From Candidatus Caccoplasma merdavium (GTDB lineage: Bacteria > Bacteroidota > Bacteroidia > Bacteroidales > UBA11471): a DNA stretch of 64,000 nucleotides. The notes beneath the pieces are model-generated. The model ran no database searches. It had not been told where the DNA came from and saw only the letters and a program-made list of their open reading frames with translations. Made by a program: the position numbers and the translations under genes. Below, piece by piece: positions 4,267 to 64,000 of the stretch. The stretch is taken from positions 62,001-126,000 of the forward strand of contig DVLI01000017.1 in the NCBI GenBank assembly GCA_018715595.1, given 5' to 3'. The stretch's first letter is position 1, and each line of letters begins with the position of its first letter.

Positions 4267-7200
4267 ATGCGTATATCTCGTTTATTCTTTTCGGCGCTGT
4301 TGGCTGCTGCCTGCCTTGTTCCCGCTCAGGCACAGCTCTTCACTTCTTCCGACTCGAAGCGCACCGCTCCCGGCCAAAGCCGCACGTTGCGTTATCAGCC
4401 CGACGGGGAAGATTTTGTCATCGTCAACGGCAATCGCAAGTTTACGCGGGCACTGTATGGTTCCAATACCGGCTTCCGCCTCGAAACAAGCGACGTGCCC
4501 GAGTTTGCCCTTTACATGCCCCGCATGGGCGGAAACCTCTCTCTCGGAGTTATCGTAGGCGAGAAAAGCCTGTGGCTCAACAACGCCGAGCGCATCGAGG
4601 CTCGTTACAGTGCGGGACGTCGCATCTACACCATTACCGACCCGCTTTTGGAAAATGGTTCGCTCGTGATTACGGCGTTGGCCCTGTATGAGGCCGACGG
4701 TATGATGCTCCAAGTCGAAGGCCGCAAGCTCCCGTCGGGAACCCAACTCGTCTGGCTCTATGGCGGAGCCACCAACAAACGGTTCAGCCGCGAAGGCGAC
4801 ATGGGAGTCGATGCACCCGATTGTTTCGACCTCAAAGCCGACTATTGCACCAATAACGTCTACCGCCTGCGTCAAGACGGATTCGATATTTGGTATGGAA
4901 CCTCGCGCGAGACGATACAGGAGTTCCTGGCCGGCAAGAATCCCGAGACCGGCAAGAATCCGGTGTGTCACCTTACGGCACTTGTCCCCGACGGAGCCTC
5001 TCAGTTGGTGGGCGATGCCACGGCTCGCACCACTCCGCTGGCATTGCGGCAAGCTCCTGCTTCCGATAAATATCCCGTCGTGTCGGGAACCGTTGCCTTG
5101 GGCAAGAAACCGGCCTACATAGCGATATACAATCCCGAGACCGCACCTTCGTCATGGAGCTATGACGACTTGGCGGCATGTTACGACCGTGCCGACAAGA
5201 GCCGTGCCGAAGTCGCTTCGACGGTGAAAATAACCACCCCCGACCCCTATTTCAACACCCTTGGGCCGGCATTGAGCCTGGCCGCCGACGGTATTTGGGA
5301 TTCGTCATACAAGGTGTGGATGCATGGCGCCATTGGTTGGCGCATGCCGCTCAACGGTTGGCGCGCCGCTTATACGGGCGATGCCATCGGTCGTCATGAC
5401 CGCGCCCGTGAACACTTCGACGGGTATGCGGCTTCGCAAGTGACCGATGTAGAGCCGGTCTTGCCGCACCCGGCACAAGACAGTGCCCTCAACTTGGCCC
5501 GTTCGTTGAAGAAGTGGGGAACCCCCATGTATAGCAACGGTTACATCTCCCGCTATCCCAACCGCAAGAACGTCATGCACCATTATGACATGAACCTTTG
5601 CTACATCGACGAACTCCTGTGGCACTTCAACTGGACGGGCGACATGGACTATGTGCGTCGCATGTGGCCGGTGTTGACGGCTCATCTCGCTTGGGAGAAA
5701 CGTAATTTCGACCCCGACGACGACGGCCTCTATGATGCCTATTGCTGTATATGGGCCAGCGACGCGCTCCAATACAACAGCGGCGGTGTCACCCATTCGT
5801 CGGCCTACAATTACCGCGCCAATAAAATGGCTGCCGAGATTGCCGAAAAGATAGGAGAGGACCCTGCTCCTTATCGCCAGGAAGCCGAGAAGATACTCCA
5901 AGCCATCAACAACAACCTGTGGCTTGCCGACAAGGGGCATTGGGCCGAGTACAAGGATTTCATGGGATTGAAGCGGGTGCACCCCGATGCTGCCATCTGG
6001 ACGGTGTACCATGCCATCGACTCTGAGATTCATGACGACTTCCAGTCGTGGCAGGCCACCCGTTATGTCGATACCGAGATTCCTCATGTCCCGGTTATCG
6101 CCGAGGGTCTCGACCGGGACGATTATGCGACGATAGCCACGACAACCTGGTTGCCCTATGTGTGGTCGATCAACAATGTGGCTTTTGCCGAGGTGATGCA
6201 CACCGCTTTGGCTTACTGGCAGAGCGGTCGCAGCGACGAAGCCTTCCATCTCTTCAAGAGTTCGATTCTCGACGGCATGTATCTCGGCGGCAGTCCCGGA
6301 AACTTCGGTCAGATAAGTACCTATGATGCGGCTCGCGGAGAGTGTTACCGTGACTTCGGCGACCCGGTGGGTGTCGCATCGCGGGCTCTTGTGCAAGGTC
6401 TTTTCGGAATCCTCCCCGACATGATGAACGATCGGGTCGTGTTGCGTCCCGGATTCCCCTCGGAATGGGAATCGGCTTCGTTCGAGACCTCCGATATTAC
6501 CTATGACTTCAAACGAAAAGGCAACAAGGATACCTATAAAGTACAACTCCGCTTCGAGCGTCCTGCCACATTGTCTTTGCAAATAAAGGCTCGACGCGAT
6601 AAAATCGCGTCGGTGAAGGTCAACGGCAAGAAAACCTCCTGGTCGCTGAAAGAGAACAGTGTGGGTGTGCCTCAAATCGAGATTGTTGCCCAACCGGCAC
6701 CGTCGAATAAAATCGAAATCGTCTGGGCCGGCAAGCCCCTGTCTCAGCCCGAGTATGACACCTTGGCTGTCGTTGGCTCGCGATGGAAACTCTCCTTGCC
6801 ATTGAGCGCACGGCTCATGGAGGTGCGTGATGAGCAGAAGCTCCTTTCCCAAACCCGCTGGGAGGCTCATTCCCTTTCGGCCGTTATCCGTGAGAATTTG
6901 GGCGAACGCACCCTTTTCCTCAAATTGGTTCAGGGAGATATGGCGTGGTGGCAACCGGTTCCCGTTACCGTGACACAGCCGGTGACGCTGGCTTCTTCGA
7001 CGACCGAGGGATATGCCCTCTCTTTCGCCTTGGCCAACCACACCGATAAACCTCTCGCGCTGAGATGCCTTGTCAATCCCGGACGTCATGAGTATGAGCA
7101 GGTGGTCGAAATCCCTGCCCACGGCGTGTCGGCCGAGGTACTTGTCCCGGCCTCGTGCGCCGAACCGGGCAGCAACACCCTGATAGCCTACGATGCTAAA

Positions 7201-7980
7201 AATCAGGAGATGGCCCGTTTCAACTGCATCAACTGGGAGGTGAAAAATTCCCACACGTTGCGTTATGAGACGGTCGACCTCGACAGTAGTATGAACGCCC
7301 GGGTGACCGATATTTTCGAAAACCGCTACTTGTCGCCGCGTTCACCCTACACGACGTTGCAAGTACCGGCACAAGGTATCGGTGAGTGGTGTCACCCAAA
7401 AGCCTTTGCCGAAATCGATGACAGCGGATTGTGCCGTGTCGCCTCGGGCGATGTGCTCGATACCCCGATGGGTGTTCCTTTCCGTGTGAAACAAGACACG
7501 ACGGCCCGCAATATCATCTTTACCACGCGTTGGGACAATTATCCCGACTCGGTAAGCGTGCCCCTTTCGGGAAAAGCCTCCCGGGCCTACCTGCTCATGG
7601 CCGGTTCGACCAACCACATGCAGTGCCACATGACCAACGGGCTGGTAACGGTTACTTATACCGACGGTACGACGTCGACCCTACCGCTCATCAATCCCGA
7701 GACCTGGTGCCCCATCGACCAGGACTTCTATGTCGACGGCCAGGCGTTCCGTCTCCAAGCACCGCGTCCCTACCGCGTCCTCTTGAAGAGCGGAATCATT
7801 ACCCGCGATGTGGAGTCTCTCCTCAAATTCCGGGGAGCCGATGGCCGTAACATTCCCGGTGGAGCTGCCGTGATACTCGATTTGCCGCTCGATGCCACCC
7901 GCACGTTGCAAAGCCTGACGCTCTCGGCCGTGTCGACCGAAGTGGTGATAGGGCTCATGGCTGTTACGCTCGAACGATAA
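4267..7980 (+). CDS. Large secreted six-hairpin glycosidase-like protein (DUF4450-type)
   Basis: 1237 residues. A signal peptide ends near AQA-QL (residue 22). Residues about 25-320 form a beta-rich N-terminal region with the pattern RALYGSNTGFR and FALYMPRMGGNL, which I associate from memory with the DUF4450 family of Bacteroidetes PUL proteins. Residues about 328-735 read as an (alpha/alpha)6 barrel (WMHGAIGWRMPLNGWRAAYTG, HHYDMNLCYIDELLWHFNWTGD, DPDDDGLYDAYCCIWASD), the fold of several glycoside hydrolase families including rhamnosidase and glucuronidase types. About 500 further residues are beta-sandwich. It follows susCD, consistent with a periplasmic or surface glycosidase of that locus. 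Catalytic residues and substrate cannot be assigned; acidic residues in the DPDDDG and ASDA loops are candidates. Confidence 0.7.
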   Translation: MRISRLFFSALLAAACLVPAQAQLFTSSDSKRTAPGQSRTLRYQPDGEDFVIVNGNRKFTRALYGSNTGFRLETSDVPEFALYMPRMGGNLSLGVIVGEKSLWLNNAERIEARYSAGRRIYTITDPLLENGSLVITALALYEADGMMLQVEGRKLPSGTQLVWLYGGATNKRFSREGDMGVDAPDCFDLKADYCTNNVYRLRQDGFDIWYGTSRETIQEFLAGKNPETGKNPVCHLTALVPDGASQLVGDATARTTPLALRQAPASDKYPVVSGTVALGKKPAYIAIYNPETAPSSWSYDDLAACYDRADKSRAEVASTVKITTPDPYFNTLGPALSLAADGIWDSSYKVWMHGAIGWRMPLNGWRAAYTGDAIGRHDRAREHFDGYAASQVTDVEPVLPHPAQDSALNLARSLKKWGTPMYSNGYISRYPNRKNVMHHYDMNLCYIDELLWHFNWTGDMDYVRRMWPVLTAHLAWEKRNFDPDDDGLYDAYCCIWASDALQYNSGGVTHSSAYNYRANKMAAEIAEKIGEDPAPYRQEAEKILQAINNNLWLADKGHWAEYKDFMGLKRVHPDAAIWTVYHAIDSEIHDDFQSWQATRYVDTEIPHVPVIAEGLDRDDYATIATTTWLPYVWSINNVAFAEVMHTALAYWQSGRSDEAFHLFKSSILDGMYLGGSPGNFGQISTYDAARGECYRDFGDPVGVASRALVQGLFGILPDMMNDRVVLRPGFPSEWESASFETSDITYDFKRKGNKDTYKVQLRFERPATLSLQIKARRDKIASVKVNGKKTSWSLKENSVGVPQIEIVAQPAPSNKIEIVWAGKPLSQPEYDTLAVVGSRWKLSLPLSARLMEVRDEQKLLSQTRWEAHSLSAVIRENLGERTLFLKLVQGDMAWWQPVPVTVTQPVTLASSTTEGYALSFALANHTDKPLALRCLVNPGRHEYEQVVEIPAHGVSAEVLVPASCAEPGSNTLIAYDAKNQEMARFNCINWEVKNSHTLRYETVDLDSSMNARVTDIFENRYLSPRSPYTTLQVPAQGIGEWCHPKAFAEIDDSGLCRVASGDVLDTPMGVPFRVKQDTTARNIIFTTRWDNYPDSVSVPLSGKASRAYLLMAGSTNHMQCHMTNGLVTVTYTDGTTSTLPLINPETWCPIDQDFYVDGQAFRLQAPRPYRVLLKSGIITRDVESLLKFRGADGRNIPGGAAVILDLPLDATRTLQSLTLSAVSTEVVIGLMAVTLER

Positions 7981-38116: not shown

Positions 38117-41100
38117 TTATTTGACAATGACTTTTTGTCCGTTGACCAGATAAAAGCCTGCGGGTAAAGAGGTGATGAAGTGAACGCCCGGTTGGTATGT
38201 GCCTTCTTTGACCTGTTGGCCTGAGACATTGTGGATCGACACAGGAAGAGGGCTCTGTACCAAAATTTCGATATAGCCGTTACCGCCTATGGCAACCATG
38301 TCGGGACGATGGTTGTCGTCTGCCAGGGTATTGCTGCCCGATGTGCCATCTTGGGCGGTGCTCGATGGGCCGAGACTGCCATACTCGTTCACGGCTTTTA
38401 CGGTAAAACTGTCGCTTTTTGCCGAAGCATCGACCACACTTTGGCATTGGGTGGTGATGTCGACAACCGAGTCGTTTTGCAGCACGAGGTAGCAGATGGC
38501 ATAGTCGCAGGCTTCCCAAGACAAGATGTCTTTGTTTTTACGGACATTTTCGGGGGCAGCGATGGGTTCGAAGAACTGACGCGGATTCCAGTTGTCGGCA
38601 CCCGGTATGATGTTGTCGTAGTTCATGCGGGCAGCCTCTTCGGCCGAGATGGTGGCGCGGCAGCTGCCGGTAATGGTTTCGCCGTTTTCGGTGTAGCTGT
38701 ATTGTGTGCGTCGGTTACTCAGGTCGATGGGGTTGCCGTCGGCGTCCATGCTGTTGTATTCGGCAAAGAGAGCAGGAATGGTGCCCATGTTGTTCCAACC
38801 GATGGCACTGGGTATGCGTTTCATGGTCGTGTTGAGATATATGGCGATGGGGCTGTTGTGCCACGGGCGGCCCAACGCGTCCTTGTTGTCGACCACACCG
38901 TCGATGGTGCAACTCTCGAAGACGTAGCCATATCGGGTGCCCTCTTTATGGGCCGGAGCTACGATGACGCTACCCGTCGACCGCAGGTTATATAGTTCGC
39001 AGGTTTCAAAGAGACAGTCTCCTCCTCCGTAGATGTAGTCGACTGCACCTTCGATGTAACACTCTTTTGCATAGAGTCGGTCGCTTACTTGGTTGGTCGA
39101 GGTCTGCCAAGTATCCTGGAACGAGCGGAAGTTGCAATGATAGAAGGCGTGGCGGTCGTTGCGGGTATACATGGCCAAGGCCATGGGTCCGTTCTGCTGT
39201 TCATATCCCCAAGTATTGATATAGGAGATATTCTCACTGTAAAAGTCGCTGCTCGAAACCTTCACTACCGTGCCGTCGTCTTTTGCCGGATAGTAGGCGG
39301 CATTGTTGGCCGAGAAGTCCCAGCCGGCATCTCCTTCGGCGGCACAATTTATTTTGTATTGAATGATGGTGCGGTCGCGGTCCTGACCGATGAGGTGGAT
39401 AAAGGGTTTGTTACCGGGTATGCGCACCAGTCCGTCGTAGACGCCATTCTTGATGAAAATCAGATAGGGCTTGCTTCTGTTTTCCGGTGCTGCATCGATG
39501 GCCGCCTGCACGCTGGTGTAGTCACCTGTCCCGTCGGCGGCAACCACAGCGTCGAAAGTCTTGGCGGCAGGTCGCGGCCGTTCCATGGTGGTAAATTGCA
39601 AGGTGACGCCTGCAAACCGGTTGCCGCTCAGGTCGGTGATGGCACCTTCGGGAATGACCACATTATAGGTGGTTCCGTAGGTAAGTCCCGAATAGGCATA
39701 GCTGGCCGTCTTGCTGCCGAATACCGGGGTAAGAACCTCGCCGTTGAGAGTTACTTCGCCGTCTCCGGCCTGTACTTTCTCATCGAATGTGAGCACGATG
39801 TTGCCGTTGGCCGAGGCCGTGTTTGAGTTTTGAGCCGGAGTGGTCGACAGAAGTTGTGGTGCCGTAAAGTCATCGACGTGCATCTCGTCGGCATATACAA
39901 AGACGTCGGCCAAGTAGAATCCCTCGGTGTCACTGCCCGATGACGAGCCAAGCAACTCGGTGGTCGCATCACCTATCCAGCGAACATAAATGCTCTTTTT
40001 TGAGTTTTCAGAAAGCGTGTCGGGCAACATGGCGTCGAAAGCAATCCACTCGCTGCTTATTCCTGCGAATGTCGTGTCGGCCAAGTCGGTGAAATGAGTG
40101 CCGTCGATGGAGTATTGCATCTTCTGTTTTTTGTGCACGCAGTTGTTGTCGGCGGCAATGTAGCTGTGTATCTTGATGTTTTCATATCCCGCGGCAGAGA
40201 ACTTCGCGACTATATAGCGGGGGTTGTCCATATCCGAGAAGTTCGTGTAACGGCGGGCACAAAAGAATGTCTTCCCGCCGAATGTCCTTTCCGAGCCGCC
40301 CCAGTTGGTGGAGGAGCCATCTCCGTTGAATAGCGACATAATCCCTTGGTTGTCGCTCTTGAAATAGTAGTCGCCTGGCCGTTCGTTCCGAGCCGGGTTC
40401 TTTTCTGTGTCGAAGTCCCAACCTACAATAAAGGGAACGACATCGTAATGAAGGGTCAATTCACGGTCTTGGTCCATGACGACGGTTTGTTTGTTTTCGC
40501 CGGTTCCGTCGCCCCAATACAAGAAAGTGGTTACCGAGTTGGGAACAACCGTGACGGTTACCTCTTCGCCACTTTCATAGCGGTTGTTCTCTTTTTGAGG
40601 CGAGAGCATGTATTCTCCCCAAGGGGCTCCTTCACCTTCTTTTCCGATGTTCAGGGTATAGAGGGTTTGCAAAGCAAATGTGGCGGATATTTCGACATCT
40701 TCATCAAGGGTGAACGTGTAGGGGTTGTCGGTAGAGAGGATATTCCCTTCGACATCTTTCCAAGCCTCGAAACGGTAACCATAGTTATGGGTTGCCGATA
40801 TGGTTACATTGGTTCCTTTTTCATAATTACCCGATAATGGTGAGGTGGTTCCTCCCTCTTGTGGCAGGCTGTTGGTGGTCAATGTGACCGCCTGCGAGAA
40901 AGTTTTCAGCCAACGCGGGTCGCCTATGACGCCCCCTTCGGTCGAGGCTGAGGCGAGAGGCGAGGTCGATACAATCGTGAAATCTCCGTTTTCAGGGTCG
41001 GGAAATATTTGGCTGATGTCTAAAGATTCGAGAGTCAGGTCTTCTATCTCCGAACTTACGGCATTCGACACCGAGTATCCGCCGTAGTTGTCGATGAGGT

Positions 41101-44248: not shown

Positions 44249-47200
44249 TTAGTCATTTTTTCCACCTTTGTATTCCGTCGGAGATTGACCTGTCTTCTCT
44301 TTGAATACGCGGCTGAAATATTGGGGGGAGGAGAAGCCGCAGCGGTACGCGATTTCTGAGACGCGCAAGTTCCCTTTCTGTAAAAAATCAATGGCTTTCT
44401 TTATGCGGATTTCCTGCACAAGGTCAATGGGAGAACTTCCGGTAAGTGATTTTATTTTCCGATAAAATACCGTGCGGCTTATGTGTTGGGTATCGGCCAG
44501 GTCTTCGATTTTGAAATCGCTGTTTTGGATATTGTTTTCAATCTCTTGAATGATGTCCCGTATGAAGGCGTCGTCGAAGCGGGTGAGTTGGCAGGTCGCT
44601 TGATGGTGTGCCTTTTCGTCGGTCTGATGCAGGTACCACGTTTTTAATCCGCGTCTTTTTTGCAGCAGATTGTGCACGCGAGCTTTCAGGTATGATGGAC
44701 TGAATGGTTTGGTGATGTAGTCGTCGGCGCCATACTCTAATCCTTTTATGCGGTCTTCGACCGATGTCTTGGCCGAGAGCAAGATAAACATCGTGTGGGA
44801 GATGTCGTTGTTTTGTTTTACGGCATTGAGAAATTCGATGCCGTCCATGACGGGCATCATAATGTCGCTGATGATGAGGCTCGGTTGGTCAGATAGTGTT
44901 TTGTCGAGACCTTCTTTTCCGTTGGAAGCCGTAATGATGTTGTAGTCGTCTTGTAAGACGTATTTGATGAAATGCCGTAGTTCGTCGTTGTCTTCAACAA
45001 TAAGTATCGACTCGTCGCCGCCCTCCCTTTTCCCGGTTATATCTTCTTCACGGGGCAGGTCGGCCCGCTCTTCGGTGACAATGTCGGAGAGTCGGACGCT
45101 CGGATAGCTCGATGCCGATATGGGTAGGGTGACACGGAATGAGCTGCCTCTTCCCAAGGAACTTTCGACTTGAATTTCCCCATGCAGAATCTGTATAAGT
45201 TCTTGTACCAAAGATAATCCGATGCCGGAGGAAAGAATGTTGCCGGGGTTGCCCAATGTCTCGAATCGGTTGAATATTTTGCCTATTTTTTCGGGGGCGA
45301 TGCCTTGCCCTTCGTCATGTACGGTGATAAAAAGTCTGTTGTCGGCTGTTTGGAGCGACACGCCAATGTGTTTTCCTTCCGGTGTGTATTTGAATGCGTT
45401 GGAGAGCAGATTGAACAGTATTTTTTCGACCTTGTCGGCATCGGTGTACCCGAAAATCGGAGACTCGCTCACCGTGAACGTGTAGTCGATGTGTCTCTTT
45501 CGAGCCAGATATTCAAACGATTCGTAGGTGTGCCGCGATAGTTCGCACAAGTCGACGCGAGTGATGTGCAATTCCATTTTGCCGTTTTGTGCCTTTCTGA
45601 AATCGAGAATCTGGTTGATGAGTTGTAACATGCGGTGCACGTTGCGTTGGGCGATGCGGAGGTTGTTGCGGGTATCGGCCGGCAGGTTGTCTTGCCGCAA
45701 GGTCGTTTCGAGTGGAGCCGCAATCAAGGTGAGAGGGGTGCGCAGCTCGTGCGAGATGTCGGTAAAGAATTTCAATTTAAGTTGGGTTACCTGTTGCTCG
45801 ATGGTGATGCTGCGGCGCAGATTGGCTATATAAATGAATATGCCCGAGATAAGCAGCGCCAGCAGTATACCGGCACAAACATACAACAGTATGGCCCATG
45901 GCGTTTCCTTGAATGTGGGGGTGACCGAGAGGTGCAGGGTGCGGTTGTTGTTGCACCAGACGCCGTCTCCATTTGTCGAACGGATTTCCAGGTCCCATTC
46001 TCCTGCCGGAAGGCCGGCGAAACTTACGGTGCGGTTGTCGGATAGGTTGTTCCATGTGTCGCTTCGCTCTTTTATCCGGTAGGCATATTGTATGGCTGCG
46101 GAGGCCGTGTAGTCGAGAGCGGCAAACGTGAGCGAAATGTTCCGTTCCCGCGGCGACAACGTGAGTGTATCGCCGATGATGGGTTTGATGATGTCGTGCC
46201 CGTCTGTGCCTGGAATCTGCATTTGTGTAAAGACGAGGGGTGGCACGATGTCGCTTTTCCCTATTTTGCCGAGGTCGAGACATAATGTTCCATAGGCGGT
46301 TCCCACATAGAGTCTGCCCTGCTTGTCGATGACAGGCGGTACTTCGCTGATGGTCAGAGGGGAGAGGTTGAAGCGGTCGTATGTCTCGATGCCGTGAGTT
46401 TGCGGGTCGTAGCGACAGATTCCGTTTTGGAATGTAATCCACAGAATGCTGTCGCCGGCTTCGGTTATGGCGTATGTGAGGTCGGAAGGCAGCCCGTTTC
46501 TTTTGTTGAAGTGTTCAAACTCGATACTGTCCGAGAGCAGGTTGTCGGAGACGATGCGGCTGATGCCTCCGCTGTACGGAACGACGTAGAGGTCGCCGCA
46601 GGCCCGTTGGTACACATGCATGACATCGTTGTTGCTGAGGCTCGATGCCTGGTTCTGTCGGCTTCGGTTGAGATGGAATGTCAGTCCTTCGGGATTTGCG
46701 AAGCGACTGTCGAAAGTGAGTAATCCTCCGGTTGTGGCTACCAGTATCACATCGCTGTCGGTGGGACAGATGTGCCGTATTTTGACGGCTTCCGGTGGAA
46801 AGGTTTTCAGTTTGTTTCCTCCGTGCAGGAAACGGAGGGGTTGCGTGGTGGAGTTTTCCACGAGATTGAGTCCCCCGCCATAGGTGCCTATCCATATTCG
46901 TCCCCGCTTGTCGGTGCGTATGTCGTAGACCGAATTGTTGCTTAGACTGTATGGCTCTTTGTCGTTGTGCCGGTAATGCCGTATCCGGTATCTTCCCCCG
47001 TTCAGCGGGGTGGCAATGAACAAGCCGTCGTCTTTGCATCCAATCCATATTCTTTGCAAGGAGTCTTCAAAAAGCGTGTAGGCATTGGAGCCGAAGACGG
47101 CGTGGCGATTGGGTACGATTTCACCTTGTCGGGTAAGGTTCCCGATATACCGGTTCGAAGTATCGTATAATGAGATGGTGCCTTGTTTGGTGGCACACCA

Positions 47201-48505
47201 TAGCCGTCCTTCGTGGTCGATGAGAAGACCTCGCACCAAACCCTCTATTCCATACTCTTTCTCGCCGAGAAGCGTGTAACGGCGCGGCGTGAATGTCAGA
47301 CAGTCGAAACCTTCTGCGGCGCACAGCCATAGATTTTTGTGGTTGTCGACGAGATATTCGTAGCCTGCTGCCTGATATGAGGCTTTCTGGCCGTTGCGTG
47401 TCAGCCAAGCAGGTTTCAGTGTATTCGTTCCCGGGTCGTAGTAGGAAAAAGCTCCATAATAAGGTTGTATCCAGATGCCGCCGAAAGCATCTTCGTGTAT
47501 GAAGCGGATTCTTTTTTGTGACTCATGCGCGTAGCTTACGGGGCGAGCCTGTTTGTCCGACGGGTCGATGCGCCATATCTTCTCAAAGCCGTCGAAGAAC
47601 CATATTGCCCCGTCCTGCGATTGATGGAGGCGGTTGATGCGCCACGATGTTTCGTCTGGTGCGCCTATCGAAGCAAATCGGCCATCTTTCTCCCGTAGAA
47701 GCAACAGCCGCGGAGTGGCGATGCACAATGTCCCTTCTTGCAATGCATAGAGCCCATCAATGTATCGGAATGATGCCGGCAGGCGGCATTCTTGTAATTT
47801 GTTCCCTGCGGTATATGAGAAAAGTCTTCCGTCGGCGGAGGCTAAGAATGCGGTGCTGTCTACAAGGCAAAAGTGGCGGAATGTCTCTTGGCTTTCGAAC
47901 GGTTGGTTGTATATGTATGTTCCGCTTCGGGTGAGTATCCATTCCTGCCCTTCTGCGTCTTCGGCAATGGTGTAAATGTCGTTGGGCAATGTCTCTATGT
48001 TTTCACATGTCTCTGAGGCCGCATTTCCTGTCAATCGTTTTTCGTCGACGCGATATAGTTTCCCATTGGGGGTAACCACCCATGTGACGCCTTTCTTCAA
48101 AGGGAAAATGCGGGGGGATTTTCCTGAAATGAAATCGCCTTGCTCCGACAGGGGGTTGAGAAATTGCTCGGTATCGCTGTCGAACAGGTAGGTGTGGCCG
48201 CCGAACGTCTGACACCAAATGTGCGAACCGAACCCTTTCTCGATATGGGTGATGCGGTTGTAGCTCAACCGCACTCTGTCGGTGGGATAGGATTTGTAGT
48301 TTTTGAAGCTGTATCCGTCGAATCGTTCCAGTCCGTTCCATGTGGCCAGCCATATATATCCCTTGTCGTCTTGCAAGATGCTTTGTATGGTATTTTGCGA
48401 CAATCCATCTTCGAGAGAGTAATGCCTGACATTGAGAAGGCTTTCTCCCCGGACGGTTGTCAGCGTGAAGATGGCAAGAAGAAGGATGAGTTTTCGGAAC
48501 GACAT
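44249..48505 (-). CDS. Hybrid two-component system regulator (sensor kinase, receiver, AraC output)
   Basis: 1418 residues from the ATG at 48505. Signal/uncleaved anchor at 1-20. Residues 22-755 are two Reg_prop beta-propellers (repeating IWLATWNGLERFDG, IWIGTYGGGLNLV, LWITFQNGICRYD). A Y_Y_Y domain is at about 780-862, with a membrane helix at 870-893. The histidine kinase has DISHELRTPLTL (His919), an ATPase with NLLSNAFKYTPEG and GIGLSLVQELIQ, a receiver with LIISDIMMPVMDG (Asp1214), and an AraC DNA-binding domain with VSEIAYRCGFSSPQYFSRVFKEKTG at the end. It senses a periplasmic oligosaccharide and activates transcription of a glycan locus; the flanking lyase and esterase genes point to a pectic ligand. 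Confidence 0.96.
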   Translation of the reverse strand: MSFRKLILLLAIFTLTTVRGESLLNVRHYSLEDGLSQNTIQSILQDDKGYIWLATWNGLERFDGYSFKNYKSYPTDRVRLSYNRITHIEKGFGSHIWCQTFGGHTYLFDSDTEQFLNPLSEQGDFISGKSPRIFPLKKGVTWVVTPNGKLYRVDEKRLTGNAASETCENIETLPNDIYTIAEDAEGQEWILTRSGTYIYNQPFESQETFRHFCLVDSTAFLASADGRLFSYTAGNKLQECRLPASFRYIDGLYALQEGTLCIATPRLLLLREKDGRFASIGAPDETSWRINRLHQSQDGAIWFFDGFEKIWRIDPSDKQARPVSYAHESQKRIRFIHEDAFGGIWIQPYYGAFSYYDPGTNTLKPAWLTRNGQKASYQAAGYEYLVDNHKNLWLCAAEGFDCLTFTPRRYTLLGEKEYGIEGLVRGLLIDHEGRLWCATKQGTISLYDTSNRYIGNLTRQGEIVPNRHAVFGSNAYTLFEDSLQRIWIGCKDDGLFIATPLNGGRYRIRHYRHNDKEPYSLSNNSVYDIRTDKRGRIWIGTYGGGLNLVENSTTQPLRFLHGGNKLKTFPPEAVKIRHICPTDSDVILVATTGGLLTFDSRFANPEGLTFHLNRSRQNQASSLSNNDVMHVYQRACGDLYVVPYSGGISRIVSDNLLSDSIEFEHFNKRNGLPSDLTYAITEAGDSILWITFQNGICRYDPQTHGIETYDRFNLSPLTISEVPPVIDKQGRLYVGTAYGTLCLDLGKIGKSDIVPPLVFTQMQIPGTDGHDIIKPIIGDTLTLSPRERNISLTFAALDYTASAAIQYAYRIKERSDTWNNLSDNRTVSFAGLPAGEWDLEIRSTNGDGVWCNNNRTLHLSVTPTFKETPWAILLYVCAGILLALLISGIFIYIANLRRSITIEQQVTQLKLKFFTDISHELRTPLTLIAAPLETTLRQDNLPADTRNNLRIAQRNVHRMLQLINQILDFRKAQNGKMELHITRVDLCELSRHTYESFEYLARKRHIDYTFTVSESPIFGYTDADKVEKILFNLLSNAFKYTPEGKHIGVSLQTADNRLFITVHDEGQGIAPEKIGKIFNRFETLGNPGNILSSGIGLSLVQELIQILHGEIQVESSLGRGSSFRVTLPISASSYPSVRLSDIVTEERADLPREEDITGKREGGDESILIVEDNDELRHFIKYVLQDDYNIITASNGKEGLDKTLSDQPSLIISDIMMPVMDGIEFLNAVKQNNDISHTMFILLSAKTSVEDRIKGLEYGADDYITKPFSPSYLKARVHNLLQKRRGLKTWYLHQTDEKAHHQATCQLTRFDDAFIRDIIQEIENNIQNSDFKIEDLADTQHISRTVFYRKIKSLTGSSPIDLVQEIRIKKAIDFLQKGNLRVSEIAYRCGFSSPQYFSRVFKEKTGQSPTEYKGGKND

Positions 48506-48557
48506 TTCACGGTATGGTTTTTCAGGCGGCAAGAGGTACTCGATTGGTTAATCTTTA

Positions 48558-63138: not shown

Positions 63139-64000
63139 TTAATAGGCGAGAATATTCCACAAATCGCGTATGCGCTGTTCGGGGTTCCATTTCCCGTCGA
63201 AGGCCCAAGGCGCTGTGATGCCGTGGAAAGCGGGAGCCCCTTCGGCATCTTGCAGGTTGTCGTTCAGCCAGCCGCTGTTTCCCCCTTCACGATAACAGCC
63301 ATAGTAGTAGGTGCGTTGTCCCCAAGGGCAGGGGTCGAGCACTTTGTCGGTGTAGGCATAACCGATGTTGTTGTCGAGAATCTTGTCCGACATGCGGCAA
63401 TGTATGAGGAAGAATTGCGAGTCGTGGTGGTAGCGGCCGAGAACGGTGGGCGACTGGGCGTCGAAGTAGGAGTTGGTGATGACCAGTTTCTTGTTTTTGT
63501 CGCCTCTGCCGTCGTGCCAGATGATGGCTCTGCCGTCGCCATAAAAGCGGCAACGTGTGGCGTAGCACCAGCCGCGCGGACAGAGAAAATCGACACCGGG
63601 ACACCGCAGGTAAAGGTCGGCGTGATAGTACATGCCGTCACCGCCCCGGGCCCAAAGGGCGAGGGCGTCGTTGCCGTCGGCCCATACGTTGCAGTTGATG
63701 ATGATGGTGCGGGTGGCGCGTCCGAAGATGGCCATTTGGTGGGTTGTCGTCTTTTCGACGGTCGTGCCATAGTTGTTATACACGGTCAGCCCGCTGATGA
63801 CGCAGTCATCGGCGCCTTCCTGCAACACGATGACGCCGTTGCCCACGGGTTTGCCGTTATACTCCTTGATGGTGCGGGTCTGGGCGGTCTCGGCGTAGAC
63901 GATGACGGTGCTGTCGCGTTGTTCGCCCACCAATACGATGTTGGGGCGGTCGATGATGACTTTCTGGTTATAGGTCCCTTTCCGAATCAGCACCTTGAAA
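63139..64000 (-). CDS. CE8-family pectinesterase-like protein, C-terminal part (cut by window edge)
   Basis: The frame stays open to the right edge (upstream codons read F-K before VLIRKGTYNQK), so the N-terminus is missing; the GTG at 63993 is not a credible start. About 287 residues remain. Features: RKGTYNQKVIIDRPNIVLVGE, the expected early CE8 strand pair; HQMAIFG near the Gln site; ADGNDALAL in place of QDT; PGVDFLCPRGWCYA in place of DFIFG; and VLGRYHHDSQ in place of LGRPW. It is a divergent CE8 branch like the 19806-21389 protein. Convergent with the second giant CE8 gene. Confidence 0.8.
   Translation of the reverse strand, partial: FKVLIRKGTYNQKVIIDRPNIVLVGEQRDSTVIVYAETAQTRTIKEYNGKPVGNGVIVLQEGADDCVISGLTVYNNYGTTVEKTTTHQMAIFGRATRTIIINCNVWADGNDALALWARGGDGMYYHADLYLRCPGVDFLCPRGWCYATRCRFYGDGRAIIWHDGRGDKNKKLVITNSYFDAQSPTVLGRYHHDSQFFLIHCRMSDKILDNNIGYAYTDKVLDPCPWGQRTYYYGCYREGGNSGWLNDNLQDAEGAPAFHGITAPWAFDGKWNPEQRIRDLWNILAY

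Follow-up and report, generated by a model that had tools for sequence, protein, structure and literature searches.

The closest described system is that of P. intermedia, in which cargo with short and with long CTDs is cleaved and C-terminally glycosylated, and both kinds of CTD were modelled on PorV (Ye et al. 2025, PMC11969387). That paper counts the gaps between the motif boxes (1-6 in short CTDs against 10-17 in long ones) and presents P. intermedia as the only species reported with both kinds. A search of the open-access literature on short CTDs together with the T9SS led to two papers, both on P. intermedia, with no title for other species among those listed. The short kind is already known, and a wider spread was not found in print. 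The search for T9SS cargo elsewhere has made use of TIGR04183 (Por_Secre_tail, curated cut-off 23 bits), which a 2024 review equates with type A CTDs, and with which CTDs were called in Candidatus Paraporphyromonas polyenzymogenes, where T9SS-linked CAZymes are predicted (PMC5831590).

The window analysed here, a stretch of 64,000 nucleotides from Candidatus Caccoplasma merdavium, contains a pectin cluster in which five enzymes carry a recognisable tail at their end (two CE8, two PL1-type and one CE12). The habitat of the organism may, as a guess, be an animal gut. On the minus strand lie a giant CE8 pectin methylesterase of 1255 residues (P0001, 38117..41884; non-lipoprotein signal peptide by eye), a PL1-type pectate lyase of 721 residues (P0002, 41906..44071) and a PL1 enzyme of 739 residues with a CBM77 (P0004, 48741..50960), the two PL1 genes being separated by a hybrid two-component regulator of the HTCS type, read by eye (44249..48532, minus strand). 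The assignment of P0002 as a lyase comes from its similarity to PelZ, well under the cut-off of the PelZ model, and a Pfam search returned no lyase match for this protein. The plus strand encodes a CE12 of the pectin acetylesterase type (P0010, 57564..59660; 698 residues counted from the first TTG) and a second giant CE8 of 1116 residues (P0009, 59697..63047). P0010 is listed with an upstream TTG as its start, but to judge from its signal peptide translation more likely begins at the ATG at residue 67. As read directly from the sequence, the N-termini of all five tailed enzymes are hydrophobic and show no lipobox pattern.

The original prediction described one common tail on the five enzymes, composed of Y/F-D/N-x-x-G-x, about 20 residues, G-x-Y-x-x-N/K-G and a short basic end, and likened it to type A T9SS sorting domains. 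All five proteins exist with the ends that it quoted, and the resemblance to sorting domains is supported, as two tail classes rather than one. The interval that it gave, 38117-38245, covers the end of the first CE8, but the other four tails lie outside it; its Y/F-D/N-x-x-G part fits the three short tails, but the CE8s read IHNVSG and VFTPGG at this place; and the second CE8 ends in RAFVY, which is hardly basic. A single tail common to all five was rejected on spacing: 20 residues lie between the conserved glycine of motif B and that of motif D in both P0001 and P0009, as against 8 in each of the two PL1s and 9 in the CE12. The glycosidase linked to SusC/SusD (4267-7980) and the "divergent CE8" (63139-64000) had been described as lacking the tail, and indeed the former has no such tail at its end and the latter no CTD. 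The gene at 63139-64000, which is whole in locus L174 (1140-3311), is a fusion in which a pectic acid lyase of family PL10 (PF09492, 410 bits) is joined to a CE8 domain (27.8 bits).

The five tails thus fall into two classes: the giant CE8s carry long ones, the two PL1s and the CE12 short ones. The long ones comprise about 68 residues in P0001 (38117..38323, minus strand) and about 70 in P0009 (62835..63047, plus strand). The short ones comprise 42 residues in P0004 (48741..48869, minus strand), 45 in P0002 (41906..42043, minus strand), which has the GxN variant of motif D, and 53 in P0010 (59499..59660, plus strand), where the last hairpin is long. Each of the three can be read as following a putative cleavage motif with Ile at +2, namely SGI in P0004, AGI in P0002 and SAI in P0010, and all three lie within the roughly 40-55 residues of the short class.

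Set beside the short CTDs of P. intermedia (PMC11969387), the short tails agree in their length of 42-53 residues, in having a small residue and then Ile where cleavage is predicted, in motif B (Y-x-x-x-G), motif D (GxY or GxN) and the basic end, and in their occurrence beside long CTDs in one genome. They differ in their lineage, a family sampled by seven genomes of one genus that we infer to be a non-Prevotella family, in their cargo, which here consists of pectin enzymes, and in the longer last hairpin of the CE12 tail; in number, six short tails were found in this genome, compared with the 48 reported for P. intermedia. P0001 and P0009 have the motif spacing and the length, about 70 residues, of the long type A CTDs (TIGR04183; RgpB, PorZ), and both lie below the TIGR04183 cut-off. 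The pectin cluster also resembles what PMC5831590 describes for Ca. Paraporphyromonas polyenzymogenes, another uncultured member of the Bacteroidetes with predicted CTD export of plant-polysaccharide enzymes, although that organism comes from the rumen and the enzymes are cellulases and hemicellulases.

Predicted models were obtained for the ends of P0009 and P0004. The end of P0009 is modelled as seven strands at model residues 108-169 (pLDDT 57-80), to be compared with the seven-stranded beta sandwich of the RgpB and PorZ CTDs, and the model matches the PorZ CTD (5m11) with a Z of 9.0 and 2.5 Å over 72 residues (model residues 99-170). This evidence for a CTD fold is supportive only: the PorZ match ranks 35 in a tied list dominated by fibronectin-III hits on the domain that precedes this end, and a Foldseek search with the same model returned unrelated top rows, the RgpB CTD (5ag8) coming 23rd and PorZ 39th. 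The model of the P0004 end consists of a linker block (pLDDT 41) followed by two two-residue and two five-residue strands (pLDDT 62-72), to be compared with the three-stranded sheet behind a flexible linker that characterises the short class; confidence in this model is moderate. When the PDB was searched by sequence with P0004, pectate lyases and CBM77 came up, but no row covered the tail.

Comparison with profiles indicates that the likeness of the tails is real and exceeds chance. A profile made from 29 short tails (28 distinct) of genomes from another family, tested on the 307 ORFs of the window, recovered P0004 (E 5.4e-17) and P0002 (E 2.6e-8), both at their last residues; P0001 came next (E 0.015), the best reversed decoy reached 0.62, and the CE12 was not recovered (E 3.6). 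Since the 29 tails had themselves been selected by a profile with 12 seeds, three window tails among them, we repeated the test more strictly, with a profile built from seven ends that had been selected via the PL1 enzyme and not via the tail. This profile found P0002 at E 1.3e-3, again up to the last residue, with the best unrelated row and the best decoy at 1.4, and, once the nearest orthologue had been removed, P0004 at E 3.8e-12; the CE12 appeared only at E 1.4 and away from its end. For the long class, 15 tails located elsewhere in this genome were selected with TIGR04183 (14 of them above its cut-off), and the profile built on them recovered P0009 (E 5.6e-7) and P0001 (E 2.6e-4) close to their ends, the best reversed decoy being at 0.27. 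Four of the five tails are hence recovered by profiles at or near the protein ends, with decoys far below, and the orthologue of P0001 keeps the end as well. The CE12 is the weakest case of the five: its score of 46.6 bits was obtained against a profile that itself contains the CE12, and what the two orthologues preserve of its tail is Y-x-x-x-G and G-x-Y.

The 29 proteins from the other family show how far the tail is kept while the rest of the sequence varies. In 29 of the 30 loci L144-L173, the sequence was read to confirm that the tail is the protein end. All six invariant columns fall in the tail (two of the four nearly invariant ones lie outside it), and the set, with its 28 distinct tails, is mostly 12-26% identical to its first member, with two at 60-69%. 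Their consensus, TGIxxV...IYDLxGRRVxxPxKGIYIxNGKKxIxK, resembles the cleavage site and the B, D and E motifs of P. intermedia. Among the bodies to which these tails are attached, read over at most about 545 residues, are BspA-type repeats (5), M60 peptidases (3), GH5 and GH43-type domains and a neuraminidase match.

Using the enzyme of P0004 rather than its tail as bait, we then looked at the ends of the best 80 of 553 homologous PL1-CBM77 loci, with phyla taken from the record titles (44 Bacteroidota/Fibrobacterota, 43 with readable ends; 36 Firmicutes, 34 with readable ends). A CTD end was present in 42 of the 43 readable Bacteroidota/Fibrobacterota homologues among these 80 (7 short, 35 long) and in none of the 34 readable Firmicutes ones, whose ends were assigned by Pfam to dockerin (20), choline-binding repeats (4) and CBM77 (5). 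SprA was found in 42 of the 44 Bacteroidota/Fibrobacterota genomes, all seven short-tailed ones included, and in none of the six Firmicutes genomes tested out of 36. One enzyme thus appears to bear different address labels across phyla, the label being one that its host can read. There are exceptions: in an SprA-positive Prevotellaceae MAG (L112) the homologue has no tail after the CBM77, and two loci (L099 and L131) encode a long-CTD PL1 in genomes where the SprA search found none.

The genome, which is 99.5% complete, encodes the corresponding machinery. SprA is located on contig C7 (93084-100301, 2730 bits), PorP-PorK-PorL-PorM-PorN stand in one row on C1, PorV adjoins PorU on C8, and PorQ is on C7; all of them score above the NCBIfam cut-offs, and the T9SS genes are without stops. 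The search for porU, porV, sprA and gldKLMN that the original prediction had proposed finds every one of them over the NCBIfam cut-offs. TIGR04183 has 23 matches in this genome, 14 of them over the cut-off and all 14 of these outside the window, and six short tails are found with the short-tail profile at E up to 1e-3, each of the six being a seed of the latter profile (two, on C26 and C16, were first found with a profile of the other four). The original prediction had left two alternatives, that the enzymes use such a system or that the tail is a remnant or interaction module in a species without it; the T9SS genes and the 14 TIGR04183 tails elsewhere support the former, and the presence of the genes excludes, for this genome, a species without the system.

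Across genomes, short tails track the T9SS, in that they occur nearly always with SprA. Within a sample of the order, in which short tails were seen in 18 family labels, they were present in 35 of 279 SprA-positive genomes (one of these under the SprA cut-off) and in none of 16 SprA-negative ones, a difference that is not significant alone (p 0.23), and a family with many SprA-negative members was therefore used. In its 298 genomes, at least 90% complete and with a short tail counted at E up to 1e-4, SprA was found in 187 and a short tail in 178: both occurred in 174, SprA only in 13, the tail only in 4 and neither in 107. Short tails were thus seen in 174 of 187 SprA-positive against 4 of 111 SprA-negative genomes (p 3e-60, Fisher, kinship ignored) and, by genus (positive if any genome is), in 16 of 17 SprA-positive against 0 of 5 SprA-negative genera (Fisher p 2e-4). 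At least 20 short tails are present in 80 of these genomes, the counts per genome referring to the best 24 candidates scored, so that 24 means at least 24. In the window's own family, seven of seven genomes have SprA and short tails. In the genus labelled g54, however, 12 of the 13 SprA-positive genomes have no short tail, which indicates that the short class depends on lineage.

Among the four tail-only genomes, three (G400, G535 and G574) have one short tail each (E 2e-6 to 8e-6) and no SprA found. The fourth, G354 (locus L144), is a strong and unexplained exception: this 100% complete genome has at least 24 short tails (best 24 of 97 candidates) and no SprA among the best 2 of 5 candidates. 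In its genus label, g183, SprA is present in 17 other genomes. Another genome, G424, is the sole SprA-positive member of genus label g181 in the sample and also the sole one with short tails (at least 24). As for the family labels, f54 may, as a guess, be the Bacteroidaceae.

We consider it highly probable (about 92%) that the five enzymes are T9SS cargo, exported to the surface, cleaved and anchored there, two by a long CTD and three by a short one, the CE12 less surely. Each enzyme would be made with an ordinary Sec signal peptide that takes it to the periplasm, and would then cross the outer membrane through SprA, its CTD being handed to PorV. The PorU sortase would cut the enzyme from the CTD, the enzyme would become fixed to the cell surface, and pectin would be de-esterified, deacetylated and cleaved outside the cell. 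The short CTD, carried by the two PL1s and, less surely, by the CE12, would be a reduced version in which motifs B, D and E are retained. For PorV binding, secretion, cleavage and anchoring, we infer this course from P. gingivalis and P. intermedia.

Chance or low complexity, whereby any end with a Y, a G and a few basic residues looks alike, could be invoked on the grounds that the motif is short, that the originally proposed formula misfits some of the five tails, and that the CE12 is missed by profiles that leave it out. The decoy and whole-window controls, the conservation in orthologues and the C-terminal placement make this negligibly probable, and for four of the five tails it is not tenable. 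The tails might instead be decaying remnants, or folding or interaction modules, that come from T9SS species and have no export use here. They do stay under the standard cut-off, and a comparison of two genomes of the genus shows them evolving at about double the rate of the enzyme bodies (dN 0.19 vs 0.10), but the tail cores appear to evolve under constraint, with a dN/dS of about 0.18 (174 codons; 0.21 in linkers and 0.11 in bodies, although dS approaches saturation at some points and is undefined in one tail). In addition, Y, G, G, Y-I and G of the P0004 tail are invariant in seven aligned sequences in which the linker varies, the genome has a T9SS whose genes are free of stops, and short tails are nearly absent without SprA, all of which renders disuse most unlikely.

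It is also conceivable, if very unlikely, that the long tails alone are T9SS signals and that the short ones serve another purpose, for instance by binding a carbohydrate, a second enzyme or some other outer-membrane receptor. This would fit the failure of TIGR04183 to recognise the short tails as well as their absence from the 12 SprA-positive g54 genomes, where the T9SS evidently does not need them. On the other hand, short tails follow SprA across genera, they retain motifs B, D and E and, in most cases, the site made of a small residue and Ile, and in P. intermedia cargo with short CTDs undergoes the same cleavage and glycosylation as cargo with long ones (PMC11969387). Moreover, short tails replace long ones on related enzymes, so that tail class and enzyme class appear to have been shuffled: the short-tailed P0002 shares 31% identity over 509 residues with a protein encoded in its own genome that has a Pfam Por_Secre_tail over the cut-off, and 45% with a protein from a same-genus genome that, by eye, ends in a long tail. 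The long-tailed CE8s, for their part, share 28-31% identity with a short-tailed CE8 in a same-genus genome.

With T9SS export of all five enzymes as the preferred reading, it is also likely that short CTDs constitute a major second T9SS address code in the Bacteroidales and are not a peculiarity of P. intermedia, as they are seen in seven named metagenome-assembled genomes besides the 178 of one family. If this is true, large parts of the secretomes of such bacteria, polysaccharide enzymes included, would be assigned to the wrong compartment. Whether an enzyme acts in the periplasm or at the cell surface determines if neighbours share in its products, and pectin breakdown would accordingly be read differently if the enzymes are surface-bound.

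The standard model is largely blind to the short class. In the window, P0001 reaches 15.7 bits with TIGR04183 as a protein and 19.9 bits in six-frame translation, both below the cut-off, P0002, P0004, P0009 and P0010 give no match, and the Pfam tail models match none of the window tails at E 0.1. TIGR04183 found none of the three short window tails and none of the 29 proteins with short tails from the other family, although these had been picked by the short profile, a choice that favours such a miss; it also found none of the seven short PL1 homologue ends, chosen by enzyme, at E 1, and it matched 35 of the 35 long ends among the 43 PL1 homologue ends. A 2024 study of rumen relatives (Segatella bryantii and Xylanibacter ruminicola) sought T9SS cargo via TIGR04183 and reports no induced T9SS cargo in X. 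ruminicola, calling T9SS use there unlikely and leaving the question open in the genus (PMC11107044). Because TIGR04183 misses short CTDs, this negative result is insecure, and with a short-CTD profile T9SS use in these rumen species could be tested directly. In the present genome, a fourth short tail, that of a GH10 enzyme on contig C25, does score with TIGR04183, though weakly, at 16.1 bits and so under the cut-off. At this locus (84986-88150), the GH10 enzyme follows a protein with a long-type tail (18.4 bits, also under the cut-off), so that mixed tail classes occur outside the pectin cluster as well.
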